From: Methylobacterium gnaphalii
Lineage (GTDB): Bacteria > Pseudomonadota > Alphaproteobacteria > Rhizobiales > Beijerinckiaceae
Reading direction: 5' to 3'
DNA: 64,000 nucleotides
Assembly (NCBI RefSeq): GCF_007992215.1
Contig: NZ_BJZV01000006.1
Span: 62,001-126,000, forward strand
The position numbers were made by a program, and so were the translations under genes. Positions within the stretch are counted from its first letter, which is position 1. The number at the start of each line of letters is the position of its first letter. Below, piece by piece: positions 33,730 to 41,941 of this stretch. Below the pieces are notes generated by a model, which searched no databases, was not told the origin of the DNA, and saw only the letters and a list, made by a program, of their open reading frames with translations.

Positions 33730-34476
33730 TCAGGCTTCCTTTGGCATCGCCGATTGGATGAACCGGTCGGAGCCGAGGTCTTCCTCGTCGTAGCCGAGCA
33801 GCTCGGCGAGGCGGCCACGGGCGCGGCTGACGCGGCTCTTCACCGTGCCGACCTTGCATCCCATGATCGTCGCGGCCTCCTCGTAGGACACGCCTTCGGC
33901 ACCCACGAGCACCAGCGCCTCGCGCTGGTCCGGCGGCAGCTTGGCCAGCGCTGACTGGAGGTCCTCTACGTCGAGCCGGTCTCCCTGGTGCGGGGCGGTG
34001 GCGAGGCGCGCCGCGTAGGAACCATCCTGGTCCTCGACCTCGCGCACGCGTTTGCGGTGGTCCGAGTAGAAGATGTTGCGAAGGATCGTGAATAGCCAGG
34101 CATTCAGGTTGGTGCCGGGCTGGAAGCGGGCGCGGTGCTGCCAGCCCTTCATCAGCGTGTCCTGGACGAGGTCGTCCGAACGAGCCGGGTTCGAGGTCAG
34201 AGAGAGCGCGAAGGCGCGAAGTGAGGGCACGGCCGCGAGCAGGCCGTTGCGGAAATCGGGATCGACGCGCTCGCCCTGCGCCTTCAGCGCGGCCTCGAGC
34301 TTCGTGATGAGATCGGCGAAGCGGGCGGTGACCGCATCCGGTGTTTCGATCGACTCGTAGACGGTGCGCAGCTGGTCGCCGAGATGCGTACGGATGCTCG
34401 CAGAGAGGTTCGGACGCCCTTCGGCGCCGTCCTCCGCGGGACGATCGAGGGTATCGGCGGTCTCGTTGCGGCTCAT
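33730..34476 (-). CDS. EcfG-type sigma factor with fused N-terminal NepR-like domain
   Basis: 248 residues, ~65 longer than usual EcfG proteins. Residues 28-43 (IRTHLGDQLRTVYES) and 47-64 (DAVTARFADLITKLEAAL) follow the two-helix pattern of the anti-sigma factor NepR. Residues ~75-140 are sigma region 2 (LLAAVPSLRAFALSL, DDLVQDTLMKGW, LNAWLFTILRNIFYSDHRK) and ~168-225 region 4 (LPPDQREALVLVGAEGVSYEEAA, GTVKSRVSRARGRL). EcfG drives the alphaproteobacterial general stress response. The two parts are in one frame with no internal stop. An ATG inside the linker is not seen, so a separate sigma product would need a non-ATG start. Confidence 0.85.
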   Translation of the reverse strand: MSRNETADTLDRPAEDGAEGRPNLSASIRTHLGDQLRTVYESIETPDAVTARFADLITKLEAALKAQGERVDPDFRNGLLAAVPSLRAFALSLTSNPARSDDLVQDTLMKGWQHRARFQPGTNLNAWLFTILRNIFYSDHRKRVREVEDQDGSYAARLATAPHQGDRLDVEDLQSALAKLPPDQREALVLVGAEGVSYEEAATIMGCKVGTVKSRVSRARGRLAELLGYDEEDLGSDRFIQSAMPKEA

Positions 34477-34657
34477 GATGCGATAAGCGTGCTTCGATCG
34501 GTGAATGTCGGGCGGCCCCAGCACCATCCCTACGCAGACGCCGTGACTGTATCGTATCGCGAAGGCGGGCGCACCCCGAGGAGCGAGCATGCCGGCCCGG
34601 CTATGATCGCTATCAGACCTTTTTCCGACCGGCGTGTCCCGCCCGCATCCGGATGGC

Positions 34658-35476
34658 TCAATTGCAGCCGCAGGGCAGGGCAACCTGGACGGGGCGGCGT
34701 CCCGGCCGCAGCAGACGCACGGCGCCGTCCTTGAACGCCACAGTGTCGCCGCGGGCAAGCTCGGTCCAGGTCTCATCGCGGGTGAGCGCCCGGGTCGCGA
34801 TCATGGTGACCACGTCGGTCTCGGTCGTCTCCTGCGCGAAGTCGACGCGCCAATCCTCGTCGACCAGCGTTGCGGTGCCGAATGGCGCGCAGCGGGTGAG
34901 GTAGCAAAGCCGTTTGCCGCAATGGGCGTAGAGTACCCGGCTGTCCGAGAGGAGCATGTTGAAGACGCCGAGCGTGCCCAGGTCGCGGCACAGCTCGGCC
35001 ACGAAGGTGTCGAGTTGCGCCGGTCGAGGCGGCTTCGGCCAGCGCTCCTGGAGCTGCGACATGATCCAGCAGAAGGCGTGCTCGCTGTCCGTCGAACCGA
35101 CCGGCTCGAAGCGGCCGAGGGGCCGCCGCTTGATGCCCTTGAGCTGGCCGTTATGCGCGAAAGTCCAGCGCCGCCCCCACAGCTCGCGGCTGAAGGGATG
35201 TGTGTTCTCCAAGCTGACCCGGCCGCGATTGGCCTTGCGGACGTGCGCGACAACGATGCGGCTCTTGATCGCGTAGCGGCGCAGAAGCTTGGCGAGTTCC
35301 GACTGCGCGCTCGGATCGGGATCGTGGAACGAGCGGCAGCCGCGGCCGCCCTCGTAGAAGGTGATGCCCCAGCCGTCGGCATGCGGCCCGGTCTCGCCGC
35401 CGCGCTTGGCTAGGCCGGCGAAGGAGAAGCGGATGTCAGTGGGCACATTGGCGCTCATGCCGAGCAGTTCGCACAT
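34658..35476 (-). CDS. Class II glutamine amidotransferase (YafJ-like)
   Basis: 272 residues. Cys2 right after the initiator Met (MCELLGMSANVPTD) is the N-terminal nucleophile. GPHADGWGITFYEG, VVAHVRKANRGRVSLENTHPF, WTFAHNGQLKG and GSTDSEHAF are the family's glutamine-binding and active-site blocks. It hydrolyses glutamine to ammonia, possibly for an unknown acceptor; no synthase domain is attached. Cytoplasmic. It lies upstream of the sigma factor on the same strand with a 181-base gap. Confidence 0.92.
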   Translation of the reverse strand: MCELLGMSANVPTDIRFSFAGLAKRGGETGPHADGWGITFYEGGRGCRSFHDPDPSAQSELAKLLRRYAIKSRIVVAHVRKANRGRVSLENTHPFSRELWGRRWTFAHNGQLKGIKRRPLGRFEPVGSTDSEHAFCWIMSQLQERWPKPPRPAQLDTFVAELCRDLGTLGVFNMLLSDSRVLYAHCGKRLCYLTRCAPFGTATLVDEDWRVDFAQETTETDVVTMIATRALTRDETWTELARGDTVAFKDGAVRLLRPGRRPVQVALPCGCN

Positions 35477-35577: not shown

Positions 35578-36696
35578 TCACCGCGCGGGAAACAGCCTGC
35601 GCGCCAGAGGGATCAGTCCGACAGCCATGCCGGCGACGCCGACGAGCGTCAGGGCGTCGGTCAGCGTAATCTTGAACGAGCCGCGCATCGCGGGCGTCAC
35701 GAACCAGTAGACGGCGAGGACCTGCACCCCTAGCGCCAGTGCCGCCACGACACGGGTGCGGTACTCGCCGGGCTTCAGGGTCACCGCTGCCGCGAGGAGG
35801 ACGACCACTCCGGCGAAGGCGGCGAGCACCAGCCCCTCGCCGACGAGGCGCGCGCCGTACCAGAGTGTGGCCTCGGGCGAGCCGAGCACCAGCGCCTGCA
35901 CGAGATGCATCACCGCCCATATCGCGAGCAGAACGGCGAGTGGTGTGAGCCGATCGAGCCGGCGTCGCGAGGGACCGACATCCGGCGGGGCAACCAGGAT
36001 CGCCGCGCTCAGCGCCAGCGCGCTCCAGCCCGCGAGCAGCACCAACCCTGCGAGGCTTGAATGAAACCGTGCGAACACCGCCATGACCAGATCGGCTGCC
36101 GCGAGCGTCCCACAGACGATGTGCAGCCCGAGGCCGAGGATGGCGCGTCCGTCGTCGATGCGGCCAGCCTTGCCCCAGGGTTCGCCGCCGCGCCGCGCGA
36201 ACATCATAGATAGGCCGATCCAGATCAAGAACACGAGGGTGAGGCGCAGGATCAGGAACGGCGTGGTAAACCAGATCGCGGCGAGCGGCGTCTCAGGCGG
36301 GGCTCCAGTTGCCCAGGGATAGAGATCTGGCAGGACAGCCAGGATTGGCAGCGCGAGCAGCGCCGCAACCGGCATCAGGCCGAGCAACCAGCGCAGGGTC
36401 TCAAGCAGGGCCGTCTCAGGCTGGGGCCGCCAGGCATCGGCCCGCTCGACCATGATCGCCACAGGAAGCGCCCCCACGGGCAAGGCGAGCAGGCAGAGCC
36501 AGGCCGGCAAGTAGGAGACTGCTAGCCGATGCCAGCCGCCCAGCAGCAGGGCGAGGCCGAAGGCCACCGCGCCGATGCCGAGCCCGGCGGCGCTGCGCCT
36601 GGCCGGGGCGAGCAGGAAGGCGCGCGCGGTTCGGGGCAGCGCGACCTCCTCCCTACGGCCGGCCTCGTCCCGCGATGGGTCCCACGGGAGGCTCAT
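35578..36696 (-). CDS. ActF-like subunit of Alternative Complex III
   Basis: 372 residues, about ten membrane helices. Landmarks of ActF: WFTTPFLILRLTLVFLIWIGLSMMF (about 140-165), FHSSLAGLVLLAGWSALALSA, and LLAIWAVMHLVQALVLGSPEATLWYGARL (matches the FWAYIxFSQFxLxWxxNxPEExxWY pattern with several changes). ActF is a membrane arm of the quinol:cytochrome c oxidoreductase ACIII. The gene is coupled to the ActCD gene by an ATGA overlap. No ActA, ActB or ActE gene is in the window. The N-terminus is Arg-rich and not conserved. Confidence 0.72.
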   Translation of the reverse strand: MSLPWDPSRDEAGRREEVALPRTARAFLLAPARRSAAGLGIGAVAFGLALLLGGWHRLAVSYLPAWLCLLALPVGALPVAIMVERADAWRPQPETALLETLRWLLGLMPVAALLALPILAVLPDLYPWATGAPPETPLAAIWFTTPFLILRLTLVFLIWIGLSMMFARRGGEPWGKAGRIDDGRAILGLGLHIVCGTLAAADLVMAVFARFHSSLAGLVLLAGWSALALSAAILVAPPDVGPSRRRLDRLTPLAVLLAIWAVMHLVQALVLGSPEATLWYGARLVGEGLVLAAFAGVVVLLAAAVTLKPGEYRTRVVAALALGVQVLAVYWFVTPAMRGSFKITLTDALTLVGVAGMAVGLIPLARRLFPAR

Positions 36697-38570
36697 CAGG
36701 CGACTTTCCGGATCGTCAGCGGCCGGCCGTCCGCCGCGGGCAGAGCCATCAGCCGCTGCTCGATGCGCTCGGCCTCGCCTGGCTCGCCGCCGACCCGCGC
36801 CGTCAGCACGAAGCTACTGCGTCCGGCCTGCCAGACATCAGCATCCCTGGGCTGACGCCGGCCCCGCGCCGCAAGGAGCGCCGCCAAAGCCGCAAGTGTG
36901 CCTGCGGTCAGCGCTGCCATCAGACTCGGAAGGACGAGGGAGGGCCAGGCGCCCCAGGGTGCAGCGCCGGCCGCCAGCGGGATTGCAGTGAGGCAGACCG
37001 CCAGAACGCCGCATCCGCCGAGAAGCGCGCCGGCCAGTGCGGTGAGTCGAATCGGGGTGACGGCCGGTCGCAAGACCTCGAGAGCCTCCGGGATCGGCAC
37101 CGGGCCCAGCGCGTCGAGACGCAGGCTGCGGTCGCGTGCCCGTAGTACACTGGCCGCGGCGGCGAGCGTCCTGGCGGAGGCGAACTCGGCCGCAACAAAC
37201 CGGACTCCGGCAGAGGACAAAATCCCTGGGTCCGGGATTTTCGGTGGCGGGGCGGTGAGTGCTCCCACTGGATTGTGAGCGAGGACAAGCGCACGCATCT
37301 GCGCGATCGAGACGATCGGCAGCGTCTGCAGAACGAGGATCAGTCCGGTCAAGAACAGGGCGACAGAGCCCGCGAGAGCGGCGATGCCTGCGATATCGGC
37401 TGCGGGCGGGACCAGTGCGGACGCGTCCCGGAGCGTGACGGCGAGACCCATCGCGCGGTCGGCATAGGCGCCGACGGCAACGAGCGTGCCGACCACGGCG
37501 ACGGCCAGACCCGAGCGGCGCAAGCGCGGCAGCCAGAAGAGCTGTGGCGGCAGCAACCCGCAGGCGACCACCGTCCAAAAGGCCGGGGCGAGGTCGCCGT
37601 GGAAGCCCCGCGCCACGGTGTCCCGCGCCGCCGCCTCGCCATGCAGCAGTACCGCCAGGATGGTGGTAGCGTGGCAATACAGGCTGGAGAGGCCGAGGAC
37701 GAGGATCAGCCTGGCCAAGATGTCGAGATGGCGGCGGGTAATCAGGCCGCAGAGCCCGTGCGTCGCGCGGATCACAACGACCGCGGCGGCGCTCGCTCCA
37801 ACCCCGGAGAGCACGGCGTCGACGAGAAAGGTGACCGGCAGGAGCGTGTCCTGCCGTCCCGGCGCCGCCGTGGCTGCCTGCATGACCGAGGCGCCTACCT
37901 GCAACGCGATGGCGAGCAGGGCACCGAGCAGCGCCGTAGAGCGATGCGCCTCCTCCCAGAGTCGCCATTGCAGGGCCGAGCCGCGCCAGCCACCCGCCAG
38001 CCAGCCGTAGAACCGGGAGGCGCCAGGTTCGTGCAGGATCGCGAGATCGGGCAACAGGCCGATGAGCCAATGGCTGGCGCAGACCACGACGAGGCTAGCG
38101 GTGCCAGCCACCTGCCAGGAGGCGGCCGATCCGAAGGGCGGAGACAGGCCGATACCGTCCATCCACGGCGCCGCCGGTGCACCGGCGCAGAACCCAGCGG
38201 CGATGGCGGCGAGCAGCGCCACCGTCTCGGTGATGCGGCCCACCGCACAGCGCCACTCGACACCTGCAAGCAGCAGTACGGCCGAGACCAGCAGACTTCC
38301 TTCCGCGATTCCGATCCAGCCCTCGTAGCTCGCCACGGCGACGAGCGCGCCCTGCTCGGCCGACCTCGGGACGAGGGCGCAGACAGCCGCCAGCGCCCCG
38401 CAGGCCCCGGCTGCGATCAGCCAGCGTCGCCGCCCGGCCCGCGGCGCGAGCACGATGTCCGTGACGATGCGGGCGACGCTCTCGACACTCTCGCCCGGCG
38501 CGACGATCCGCTCGCCATAGAGACTCTCGGGCAGGGGCGTGAGAACCTTGGGGAACGCTTTCGCCGTCAC
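36696..38570 (-). CDS. ActC-ActD fusion (NrfD/PsrC-like plus DUF3341), ACIII-like
   Basis: 624 residues. The first ~430 follow NrfD/PsrC-type ActC: IAEGSLLVSAVLLLAGVEWR, ASHWLIGLLPDLAILHE, FYGWLAGGWRGSALQWRLWEEAH, LLPVTFLVDAVLSGVGA. Residues ~450-624 are a DUF3341 ActD (GVRFVAAEFASARTLAAAASVLRA, two membrane helices, SSFVLTARVGGEPGEAERIEQRL). In working ACIII these are separate subunits; here they are one chain. The HSIVS-type loop of ActC is not recognisable (GASVMQAAT at the place). The gene heads a two-gene unit with ActF. Confidence 0.72.
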   Translation of the reverse strand: MTAKAFPKVLTPLPESLYGERIVAPGESVESVARIVTDIVLAPRAGRRRWLIAAGACGALAAVCALVPRSAEQGALVAVASYEGWIGIAEGSLLVSAVLLLAGVEWRCAVGRITETVALLAAIAAGFCAGAPAAPWMDGIGLSPPFGSAASWQVAGTASLVVVCASHWLIGLLPDLAILHEPGASRFYGWLAGGWRGSALQWRLWEEAHRSTALLGALLAIALQVGASVMQAATAAPGRQDTLLPVTFLVDAVLSGVGASAAAVVVIRATHGLCGLITRRHLDILARLILVLGLSSLYCHATTILAVLLHGEAAARDTVARGFHGDLAPAFWTVVACGLLPPQLFWLPRLRRSGLAVAVVGTLVAVGAYADRAMGLAVTLRDASALVPPAADIAGIAALAGSVALFLTGLILVLQTLPIVSIAQMRALVLAHNPVGALTAPPPKIPDPGILSSAGVRFVAAEFASARTLAAAASVLRARDRSLRLDALGPVPIPEALEVLRPAVTPIRLTALAGALLGGCGVLAVCLTAIPLAAGAAPWGAWPSLVLPSLMAALTAGTLAALAALLAARGRRQPRDADVWQAGRSSFVLTARVGGEPGEAERIEQRLMALPAADGRPLTIRKVA

Positions 38571-39340
38571 GATGCCGAAATCCGCGACTGCCGGTGACGT
38601 ACTCGCTCACTCATCGCCGATCGCCCGCTCCCCTCGACGACACTTCGGTTCCTCCATGGGCCGTGCCAGCTTTTCGCTGGCACCCTAGCGGGATCGCCAG
38701 CATTCGGAAAACCGAGGGCATCCGCGCGATAGCGCAAGGGCCTAGAAGCGTCACACGCGTGGGTAACGGACCATGGGCGAAGCCACTGCCGATCCGCTCG
38801 CACGCTATGAGCGGTTCTTCGCTCGCCCCTCGCCGGCGAGCCCGACTTGGAGGAGATGGCTTCACTCTAAGCCTCGGCTTTCATCGCGGCGACGTCCACG
38901 GGCGTGATGGCCAGCCGGAATGACGATCGGATCCAGGGCGATGCGGATGCACGGCATCGACACCGTGCTGATCGACTGGATCGCGCCCTATGCCACGGAA
39001 GCCAAGCCGGACACGGACATCGCCTTACCGTCGGCCCTCTCGGCCAAGTCCTCGACGGATAGCCCCCGGGTGTTCGGCTGATGACCGGCGACGAGCTCGC
39101 GCTGCTGAGGGAGTACGGGAACGTCTGAGGATGTGCCGCGCCGCACCTGTCGAGTGCATCCCCAGCCTCTCCATGCCCCGCAATCCGACGCGTCTTCGCG
39201 GAAAATAGCTGGAGCTTCAGGCGGTTCGTTTCGTACGGCCTCGCTGGAGAACCGGTTTCCACTTTTGCGCATCATGCTCTAAGCCCGCTCGTGCATGAGA
39301 CGCATCGAGCCCCGCCATCGCAGCCCCGTGCGGCCCGTCG
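38571..39340. other. Intergenic stretch between divergent act and ABC-like genes
   Basis: 770 bases that hold the promoters of two divergent genes. Two tiny plus-strand frames at 38941-39081 (46 residues) and 39081-39128 overlap by ATGA but have only weak ribosome sites. The first contains GIDTVLIDWIAPYATEAKP and may be a gene remnant. Nothing else is recognised. Confidence 0.4.
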
Positions 39341-41941
39341 ATGGAGCGTGATCCGATCCTGTTCGGTTGGCGCTCGGCGCCGCGGGCGCACGCCCTGGCC
39401 GTGGCGCTCGGCGTCGGGCTCGGTACCCCGCTCGCCCTGTTCGCGCTGCTCTGCCTGCGCGACCTGATCGACCTTCTCGTACCGGGAGCCTCCGAGCCGC
39501 GGCGCTTCCTGGCGCTGGCCCTGCCGCTTCCCGGCCATCCACCGGCAGTGCTTCCGATCGCCTCCGGCTTGCCCATGAGCGGGCATGGGCTGCTGCTCGC
39601 GGCGTTGCTCGGGCTCGCCGTCGCGGCTCTGGCCTTCGCCGGGCTCGGCTGGCTGGTTGCCCGCGTCTGCTTCTCCGCCCAGGCTCGGGCAGCATCGCGC
39701 CTGCGCGCCACGGCCGTCGATGCGATCCTGCGCGCTCCGCCTGGCGCCCGCGAGGACGTACGCGCCTTGCCCGGCCTGACAGGGTCGGCGCTCGCCGGAT
39801 TGCCTGCTGCCGGCATCCTGGTGCCGGCTATGACGCTCGCCGCCGTGCTGCTGGCGCTCGCCACCGCTGCGCTCGTTGCGGCGCGCCTCGTCCCGGCGAT
39901 GGCGATCGGCCTCCTTGCCGTCGGCCTCGCCCGCGCTCTTCAGATCCGACGCGGACTCGAACGCACCAGCCTGCGTCAGCAGGAACAGGCGGCGGTGGAG
40001 GCCGGGCTCGGTGACCTGATCCTGCGGATGCCCGCCGTGCGCGCGCACGGCTCGGCGATGTTCGAGCGGCGTCGGCTCGGCCTGCGCGCTCGCGCCACGC
40101 ACGGCACCCTGGCCCGGGCCGAGGCCGCGCTGGCCTACGCACGCGCGCCGGCTCTCGCCCTGGTCGTGCTGCTCCCCGCGATCTTCGTGGCGACGGCCCT
40201 CTGGCACGGCCCGGGCGCGCCTGAGGGGGCCGAGCCCACCATGCCTGGCGCGCTCGCTGCGGCGGCGGCCGCCTTCGTGCTCGCAGCGGCCATGATCGCG
40301 GCGTTCGTGCGGCTGTGGTTCCTCAGGATGGAAACCGCGCCGACCTATCAGAGACTGGCGCAAGCCCTCGACGGACTCGCCGACAAGCGGACCGCCCCGC
40401 ATCGCGCAGCCGCCTTCCCGACCTCGGGCCCACTGATCGCCACCGATGCAGGTGCCTACGATCCGGCGAGCGGTGAGCGGCTCACAGGCCTCGACGCGGT
40501 GCTGCCGATGCCAGCCCATATCGCCATTGTCGGCGAGCGCGGCAGCGGGGTGCAGGCGCTCGCAGCGCTGCTCGCCGGCCAGATCGAGCCGAGCGTCGGC
40601 GCGATCACCTATGGTGGGGTCGACTTGCGCAGCCTCGACCCGGTCGAGCGCGCCCACCGCATCGCCTTCGCTGGCTCGGAGGCGATCCTGATCGAGGGCA
40701 CGCTGAAGCAGAACCTGCTCTACGGCGCGCGGATCGACGAGCGTGAGGCGCTCGGCGAACAGGGCCGCATCGCGCTCCTCAAGCTCTCGGGTCTCGATGC
40801 CCTGATCTACGCGCGGGGCCTGGAGGGCACCATCGACCCCGACGCCGAACCGGCAACGGCGCAGGCCATCGTCGCAGCCCGCGCGGCGGTGCGCGAGGCT
40901 CTCGCCGCGCAGGGCATGGCCCGGCTCGTCGAGCCGTTCGATCCGGCCCTCTACAACCATCAGGCGACGGTAGGCGAGAACATCCTGTTCGGTGAGGCGG
41001 TGGGCGCCACCTTCTCGCAGGAGCGGCTTGCCGGCCACCCCTACCTGCGTGCGGTGCTGGAGGCGGAAGGCCTGACCCGCAGCTTCATCGAGATGGGTCT
41101 CGCCATCGCACGCTCCACTGTGGAGATCTTTTCCGACCTGCCCGACGACCACCCGCTTTTCGACGGCTTCTCGCTGTTTCCGGCGCGCGAGCGCGGCTTC
41201 TTCGAAGATCTGATCGCCCGCCAGCCCGACGGGCGCAGTTGGCGCCGCGGCCCCGCCGGTGCACGCGACCGCGAGCGGCTGATCGGCCTCGCCCTGCGCT
41301 ACAGCGAGACGCGTCACCGCTTCGGACTGATCGATCCGGAGCTAGAGGAGCGGATCGTCGGCGCCCGTGCGTCCTTCGCGCGGCTAATGCCCCCGAAATT
41401 CAAGGACAAGATCGATCTCTACGATCCTGCCCGCGTCACTGCCGCGGCGAGCCTCGAGGAGAACGTGCTGTTCGGCCGCATTACCCAGGGCGAGGCGGGT
41501 GCCGAGCAGCGCGTGCGCGCCCTCATTCGCCAGGTGCTCGCCGACCAGGGGTTGGAGCCCGCCGTCTACCGGCTCGGGCTCGCCAGCCGCGTTGCGTCGA
41601 GCGGTCCAGGCACGGCTGTGGCTCGGCGGCAGGGCCTCACCGAGGGCGGCATCGGCCCGCGCGACCGGGTCGCCATCGACCTCGTGCGCTGCCTCGTACG
41701 CCGGCCCGACATCCTGGTGGTTGGCCTGCTGCCGGACGAGCGAAAGTCGGAGGAGATCGCCGCGCGGATCATGCGCCTGCGCATGATCCGGCAGAATCTA
41801 GGCCTGATTGTTTGCCTGCCCGACGCCGAGACCCTGAGCCGCCTGCCCCCCTTCGACGCGGTGCTCACCGTCGCGCGCAACGCCGCGACGCTGGCGAGCA
41901 GCAGCCCCGCTGACCAACCTGCGCCTTCGCACGCAGCGTAA
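39341..41941 (+). CDS. ABC exporter-like protein with degenerate nucleotide-binding domain
   Basis: 866 residues. The N-terminal ~340 are an ABC-exporter membrane domain (GVGLGTPLALFALLCLRDLIDLL, LGLAVAALAFAGLGWLVARV, AFVLAAAMIAAFVRLWFL). The following NBD has a Walker A written GERGSGVQAL: the invariant Lys-Ser/Thr is missing. The Q-loop-like motif occurs three times (LKQNLLYGA, TVGENILFGEA, SLEENVLFGRI at about 461, 549 and 709), with a ~230-residue insertion between copies. No LSGGQ signature is visible, while RDRVAIDLVRCLVRRPDILVV recalls the Walker B region. Likely a non-hydrolysing relative. The start could lie slightly elsewhere. Confidence 0.75.
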   Translation: MERDPILFGWRSAPRAHALAVALGVGLGTPLALFALLCLRDLIDLLVPGASEPRRFLALALPLPGHPPAVLPIASGLPMSGHGLLLAALLGLAVAALAFAGLGWLVARVCFSAQARAASRLRATAVDAILRAPPGAREDVRALPGLTGSALAGLPAAGILVPAMTLAAVLLALATAALVAARLVPAMAIGLLAVGLARALQIRRGLERTSLRQQEQAAVEAGLGDLILRMPAVRAHGSAMFERRRLGLRARATHGTLARAEAALAYARAPALALVVLLPAIFVATALWHGPGAPEGAEPTMPGALAAAAAAFVLAAAMIAAFVRLWFLRMETAPTYQRLAQALDGLADKRTAPHRAAAFPTSGPLIATDAGAYDPASGERLTGLDAVLPMPAHIAIVGERGSGVQALAALLAGQIEPSVGAITYGGVDLRSLDPVERAHRIAFAGSEAILIEGTLKQNLLYGARIDEREALGEQGRIALLKLSGLDALIYARGLEGTIDPDAEPATAQAIVAARAAVREALAAQGMARLVEPFDPALYNHQATVGENILFGEAVGATFSQERLAGHPYLRAVLEAEGLTRSFIEMGLAIARSTVEIFSDLPDDHPLFDGFSLFPARERGFFEDLIARQPDGRSWRRGPAGARDRERLIGLALRYSETRHRFGLIDPELEERIVGARASFARLMPPKFKDKIDLYDPARVTAAASLEENVLFGRITQGEAGAEQRVRALIRQVLADQGLEPAVYRLGLASRVASSGPGTAVARRQGLTEGGIGPRDRVAIDLVRCLVRRPDILVVGLLPDERKSEEIAARIMRLRMIRQNLGLIVCLPDAETLSRLPPFDAVLTVARNAATLASSSPADQPAPSHAA

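Follow-up and report, generated by a model that had tools for sequence, protein, structure and literature searches.

A single uninterrupted gene in the window (the 64,000-nucleotide stretch of Methylobacterium gnaphalii DNA analyzed here) encodes a protein with the modeled fold of a type IV ABC exporter, in which every catalytic ATPase motif has been lost and a Q-loop-to-helix segment of the nucleotide-binding domain (NBD) is present three times (Table 1). The gene is conserved and under purifying selection, and its branch is a derived part of a larger alphaproteobacterial family that shares the repeat insert. The best reading is that the protein would serve envelope-glycan work as a pseudo-ABC scaffold or regulator; in its most specific form, to which we would give about an even chance, this reading has it as a dimeric membrane scaffold that would bind partners through the triplicated NBD surface and would not hydrolyze ATP. 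ABC proteins are well studied, and a dead copy is normally explained either by decay or by its being half of a heterodimer. In this case a widespread family under generic ABC annotation has the segment linking NBD and membrane duplicated, the Mg-site residues altered as a group, the ATPase residues lost repeatedly and a cyclic-nucleotide sensor encoded alongside, and it offers a direct way to test if a second messenger or the binding of a partner can take the place of ATP in driving an ABC fold.

Fold, motif remnants and internal repeats

The frame is open from its ATG through 866 codons to the stop, as the first-pass annotation of this DNA had stated, and that annotation's description of the product as ABC exporter-like is upheld by structure prediction. 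The AlphaFold2 model of the 866 amino acid protein (pLDDT 82.9, pTM 0.74, with 37 family sequences as input) has a membrane domain followed by one ABC-fold NBD and matches type IV exporters over its whole length, with the PDB alignment starting at residue 1–2. Domain order and both domain folds are the same as in the ABCB/MsbA-like type IV exporters (TmrAB, TM287/288, CydDC and the ComA NBD), from which the protein differs by an insert of ∼270 amino acids (two extra Q-loop/helix copies) and by its lost catalytic motifs. The best NBD match is ComA (Z 20.5, rmsd 3.6, 227 of 240 residues), and since this match spans residues 359–860 of the model there is one NBD, interrupted by the insert. The model of a "core" member of the wider family (discussed below) with GSGKE/NEAT-type motifs aligns even more closely with the ComA NBD (Z 29.8, rmsd 1.7, 237 of 239 residues) across model residues 342–876, so there too the insert interrupts a complete NBD. 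Sequence models recognize the window protein poorly: Pfam ABC_tran scores 20.7 bits, below its gathering cut-off of 25, and the best NCBIfam model, CydC, reaches 51 bits against a cut-off of 329. Identity with CydC or another named exporter was rejected because these scores are far under the cut-offs.

None of the exporter consensus elements (Walker A GxxGxGK[S/T], LSGGQ, Walker B D-E and the H-loop His) is present. Loss of the P-loop Lys and Ser/Thr and absence of LSGGQ had been noticed in the first pass and both hold, the P-loop reading GERGSGVQ (residues 398–405) and the stretch equivalent to the signature LTEGGIGPRDRV; in addition, the Walker B Asp and catalytic Glu (the remnant is PDILVVGLLPDE) and the switch His are missing. 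Ordinary exporters of the same genome have GK[S/T] intact. The losses predict, although they do not prove, that the protein does not bind ATP.

The three Q-loop-like repeats, first seen as the motifs NLLYG (residues 458–462), ENILFG (546–551) and ENVLFG (707–712), do align with one another as profiles, all three within one NBD. In profile–profile comparison with hhalign for the window subfamily, repeats 1 and 3 match with 97% probability (E 6e-11), 2 and 3 with 96% (E 2e-9) and 1 and 2 with 51% (E 1.5e-4), while non-repeat control segments give E values of 0.14–0.41. For the wider family the three repeat pairs give 93% (E 3e-7), 98% (E 5e-13) and 92% (E 8e-7), with controls at E of at least 0.07. 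Each segment is modeled as a short strand, the ENLLFG helix and then further helices. The original description needs one small amendment, in that motif 1 belongs to the stretch from Q-loop to helix that any NBD has and only repeats 2 and 3 are extra, both carried by the insert, which lies ahead of the signature.

Table 1. Features of the pseudo-ABC exporter gene (positions in the window; residues of the encoded protein).
Feature	Residues	Position	Strand	Basis or remark
Pseudo-ABC exporter gene		39341..41941	+	Open frame; AlphaFold2 model; ABC exporter matches
Transmembrane domain (TMD), type IV exporter fold	1–355	39341..40405	+	Model helices; PDB alignment; 54% mean identity to orthologs
Walker A remnant GERGSGVQ	398–405	40532..40555	+	V and Q in place of Lys and Ser/Thr
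Repeat 1: Q-loop strand, NLLYG (40712–40726), helices	441–527	40661..40921	+	hhalign; model
Repeat 2: ENILFG (40976–40993) and extra helical bundle	528–687	40922..41401	+	hhalign; 76% mean identity to orthologs
Repeat 3: ENVLFG (41459–41476)	688–750	41402..41590	+	hhalign
Signature (LSGGQ) remnant LTEGGIGPRDRV	766–777	41636..41671	+	
Walker B remnant PDILVVGLLPDE	789–800	41705..41740	+	Both acids lost (Asp, catalytic Glu)
H-loop remnant LIVCLPD	822–828	41804..41824	+	Switch His lost

Conservation and the wider family

Homologs with a normal Walker A, which would have made this a single decayed copy, were not found in the window subfamily: the Lys is kept in none of 56 aligned members, drawn from Methylobacterium and from further genera in the family, its place being taken by A (31), S (9), G (7), V (3), P (3), T, R or I. 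All Methylobacterium genomes in the relatives set have the gene, and other genera of the family carry a full-length gene (36–46% identical), usually in a genome that also holds a second copy, of core type. The gene is under purifying selection, with omega at 0.12–0.17 in comparison with the closest species and at 0.34–0.46 for more distant ones; these values are rough, since the DNA is GC-rich and the counting method simple. In the C-terminal half of the NBD omega climbs to 0.4–0.8 at larger distances, and some of the NBD may therefore be drifting. Mean identity to orthologs is highest in repeat 2, and lowest in the TMD and the C-terminal half of the NBD (55%), a pattern that points to constraint on the insert and not on the ATPase site. 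A single decayed copy is rejected by this conservation across Methylobacteriaceae and by the selection.

Another reading is that the gene is a decaying pseudogene or a reading-frame artefact of GC-rich DNA. In its favor are the lost Walker motifs, the long antisense open frames that overlap the gene and one ortholog (L071) that is split across two frames, but it is contradicted by an intact frame and purifying selection throughout a bacterial family and by the confident model fold, and we regard it as extremely improbable. One such antisense frame (39272–41317, minus strand, 681 amino acids) has no independent support and is taken as a by-product of the GC-rich coding sequence. In L071 (7176–9764) and in a second ortholog, L036, the N-terminal frame is shifted or odd, through either a real disruption or an assembly error.

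Relatives were found, with a profile of core members, in 132 of 385 genomes sampled from the class, mostly as one full-length copy of ∼900 amino acids; a phylum-wide sample outside the Alphaproteobacteria yielded a single TMD fragment, and other members there are possible. Core paralogs occur in Rhizobium etli (pRetIE4803a), Sinorhizobium meliloti (pSymB), Ruegeria and Azospirillum, and are annotated only as ABC transporter ATP-binding, permease or transmembrane-domain proteins. They have the same repeat insert as the window branch and similar lengths; the window protein is 30–44% identical to them over about residues 477–800, whereas the TMD has diverged between window branch and core (17% identity). 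In the tree, whose root is for drawing only, the window branch forms a single clade, well supported and on a long branch, separate from the core branches, and it is a derived branch of this larger family.

Unlike the window branch, core members often keep the Lys, Glu or His. Among 61 non-redundant sequences of the wider family, whose motif counts are not independent because of shared ancestry, the Walker A Lys is kept in 27 and lost in 34, and only one has GK followed by S/T; that member has the Walker B D. Those that keep the Lys commonly combine Walker A GxxGSGK[E/D] with N or S in Walker B: E or D follows the Lys in 23 of 27, N or S replaces the Walker B Asp in 23, and both changes are found in 21, while the catalytic Glu is retained in 20 and the His in 13. 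Both changed residues normally serve the Mg ion in ABC ATPases, and it is unusual that the two are changed together in most Lys-keeping members. Judged from these motifs, distant members with Lys, Glu, His and LSxxQ may bind ATP or hydrolyze it slowly. The first pass spoke of an "ATPase-dead family with internal repetition", a description that holds up well for the window branch, with the qualification that many distant relatives keep these residues. Pfam and NCBIfam scans gave no model specific to the repeat-insert family, and the literature searched held no paper on it. The fold is already known; what is not described in that literature is the combination of a triplicated segment, changed Mg-site residues, repeated loss of ATPase residues and linkage to a cyclic-nucleotide-binding (CNB) gene.

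In 83 of 92 core locus records (62 of 71 when duplicate-fetched loci are removed) this gene, which encodes a small CNB protein, lies within 700 bases on the downstream side of the core member, and of the nine loci where it is not found downstream eight are Methylobacterium core paralogs and one is another. In two loci (L054 and L117) the CNB domain is fused into the same chain as the ABC part. Apparent fusions in L041 and L047 were rejected because the CNB match is in a different frame from the ABC gene, and they were counted as adjacent. Also recurrent around core loci, divergent or upstream, are GT28-like and GT4 glycosyltransferases, a histidine phosphatase and an Opp-like importer, along with a deacetylase-like protein that has no Pfam match and, in some, an adenylate/guanylate cyclase. 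In L131, L135, L137 and other core loci the pseudo-ABC and CNB genes are divergent from the GT28-like/GT4, histidine phosphatase, deacetylase-like and Opp-like importer genes; no paper on this conserved cluster was found in the literature searched. Two S. meliloti tags, smb20804 and smb20805, are mentioned in connection with capsule in PMC5539429, but they could not be tied to the pseudo-ABC locus.

The CNB gene is absent at the window locus and from the window branch as a whole except for the divergent member L169 (5156–7807), in which R replaces the Walker A Lys and a CNB-like gene still follows downstream; this member is a possible intermediate. A different neighbor, a metallo-beta-lactamase (MBL)-fold hydrolase gene, adjoins the pseudo-ABC gene in 37 of 44 related loci (19 of 20 in other genera and 18 of 24 in Methylobacterium); in Methylobacterium the two are usually separated by an L,D-transpeptidase gene. 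The window locus belongs to the seven that lack an adjoining MBL gene. In the lineage of the window and three related loci (L006–L008) the MBL/L,D-transpeptidase pair is not beside the pseudo-ABC gene; in the window genome (G000) the two genes are together on contig C1, at 75–77 kb.

Possible role and alternatives

The ancestor is likely to have belonged to an unnamed, large alphaproteobacterial family of half-transporters whose NBD was split between Q-loop and signature by the two-copy insert. With the CNB gene directly downstream (fused in two cases) and usually glycosyltransferases alongside, the likeliest role of core proteins is as membrane components that respond to cyclic nucleotides within an envelope-glycan system; this glycan link comes from the core members and not from the window branch. 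In Methylobacteriaceae the window branch would have lost its ATPase residues and the CNB gene while keeping the insert and an adjacent MBL-fold hydrolase gene. The exporter dimer would be retained as a membrane body in which NBD ATP turnover has ceased, the triplicated segment could serve as a partner-binding surface (the partner in core members being probably the CNB protein), and a partner or second messenger, not ATP, would determine which state the membrane domain, or a partner envelope enzyme, is in. A role as regulator or structural membrane protein, suggested in the first pass, is plausible. The window locus itself counts against the scaffold reading, having neither the CNB nor the MBL gene.

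The protein could instead be the dead half of a heterodimeric ABC exporter whose normal half-transporter partner is encoded elsewhere. Such exporters often have a dead or degenerate half, one example being described in PMC12038006. The TMD and NBD folds match TmrAB, TM287/288 and MsRv1273c/72c, and ordinary exporters with intact GK[S/T], noted above, are encoded in the same genome. In heterodimers with a degenerate site (MsRv1273c/72c, TmrAB, TAP, BmrCD), which resemble the window protein in their impaired NBD and exporter fold, impairment is confined to one site, there is an active partner, usually encoded alongside, and the Walker A lysine and ATP binding are usually retained in the degenerate half. 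The window protein, in contrast, has lost every motif, and no partner exporter is adjacent in the window or at orthologous loci, although a distant partner is possible; the TMD, moreover, diverges fastest, which argues against an obligate TMD partner. A heterodimeric half seems unlikely. The idea that the core is a working, rewired ATPase, in which the Mg-site roles are exchanged between E/D after the Lys and N/S in Walker B, and whose site later died in the window branch to leave the membrane domain as a passive flippase or channel, draws on the 27 Lys-keeping sequences and their concerted changes, with the catalytic Glu retained in most. However, the 34 losses of the Lys imply that turnover is dispensable in many lineages, E or D beside the bound phosphates may block nucleotide instead, and the co-occurrence is explicable by shared ancestry, the sole hint of coupling being the GKS member with D; this explanation is doubtful. 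The scaffold reading of the window protein could be widened, quite tentatively, to a class-wide system in which an ABC exporter body was turned into a cyclic-nucleotide-responsive, non-hydrolyzing membrane switch for envelope-glycan synthesis, with the triplicated helical NBD subdomain as its platform, and in which the window branch would be a fully ATP-independent form tied to the MBL-fold hydrolase.

A possible parallel for a link between an ABC exporter and cyclic-nucleotide binding, as in the fused core members, is HetC of Nostoc (PMC10986499). HetC is a peptidase-containing ABC exporter for which the portion of that paper available to us reports no repeat insert, and the window protein differs from it also in having no CNB domain.

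Genes upstream in the window

On the minus strand at 35578–38570 lie genes for an ActCD fusion and ActF of alternative complex III, orphan-looking, with no adjacent ActB. An ActB homolog (45% identity) is found elsewhere in the window genome (contig C4, 21–24 kb), and in many related Methylobacterium loci ActB sits between ActCD and the ABC gene. The divergent arrangement of the pseudo-ABC gene and the ActCD unit described in the first pass is correct for this lineage, but the synteny is found in only part of the genus, and the co-occurrence with ActCD-ActF that was proposed as a check fails outside it, with Act genes at none of the 20 other-genus loci. A functional unit was rejected for these reasons; the link is just a lineage-specific one of neighborhood. 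Beyond the Act genes, a single 348 amino acid frame (33730–34776, minus strand) contains an ECF sigma factor (residues 171–339) preceded by a weak NepR-like stretch (residues 130–163, below the cut-off), and it is possibly a NepR-sigma fusion or just an over-long frame.
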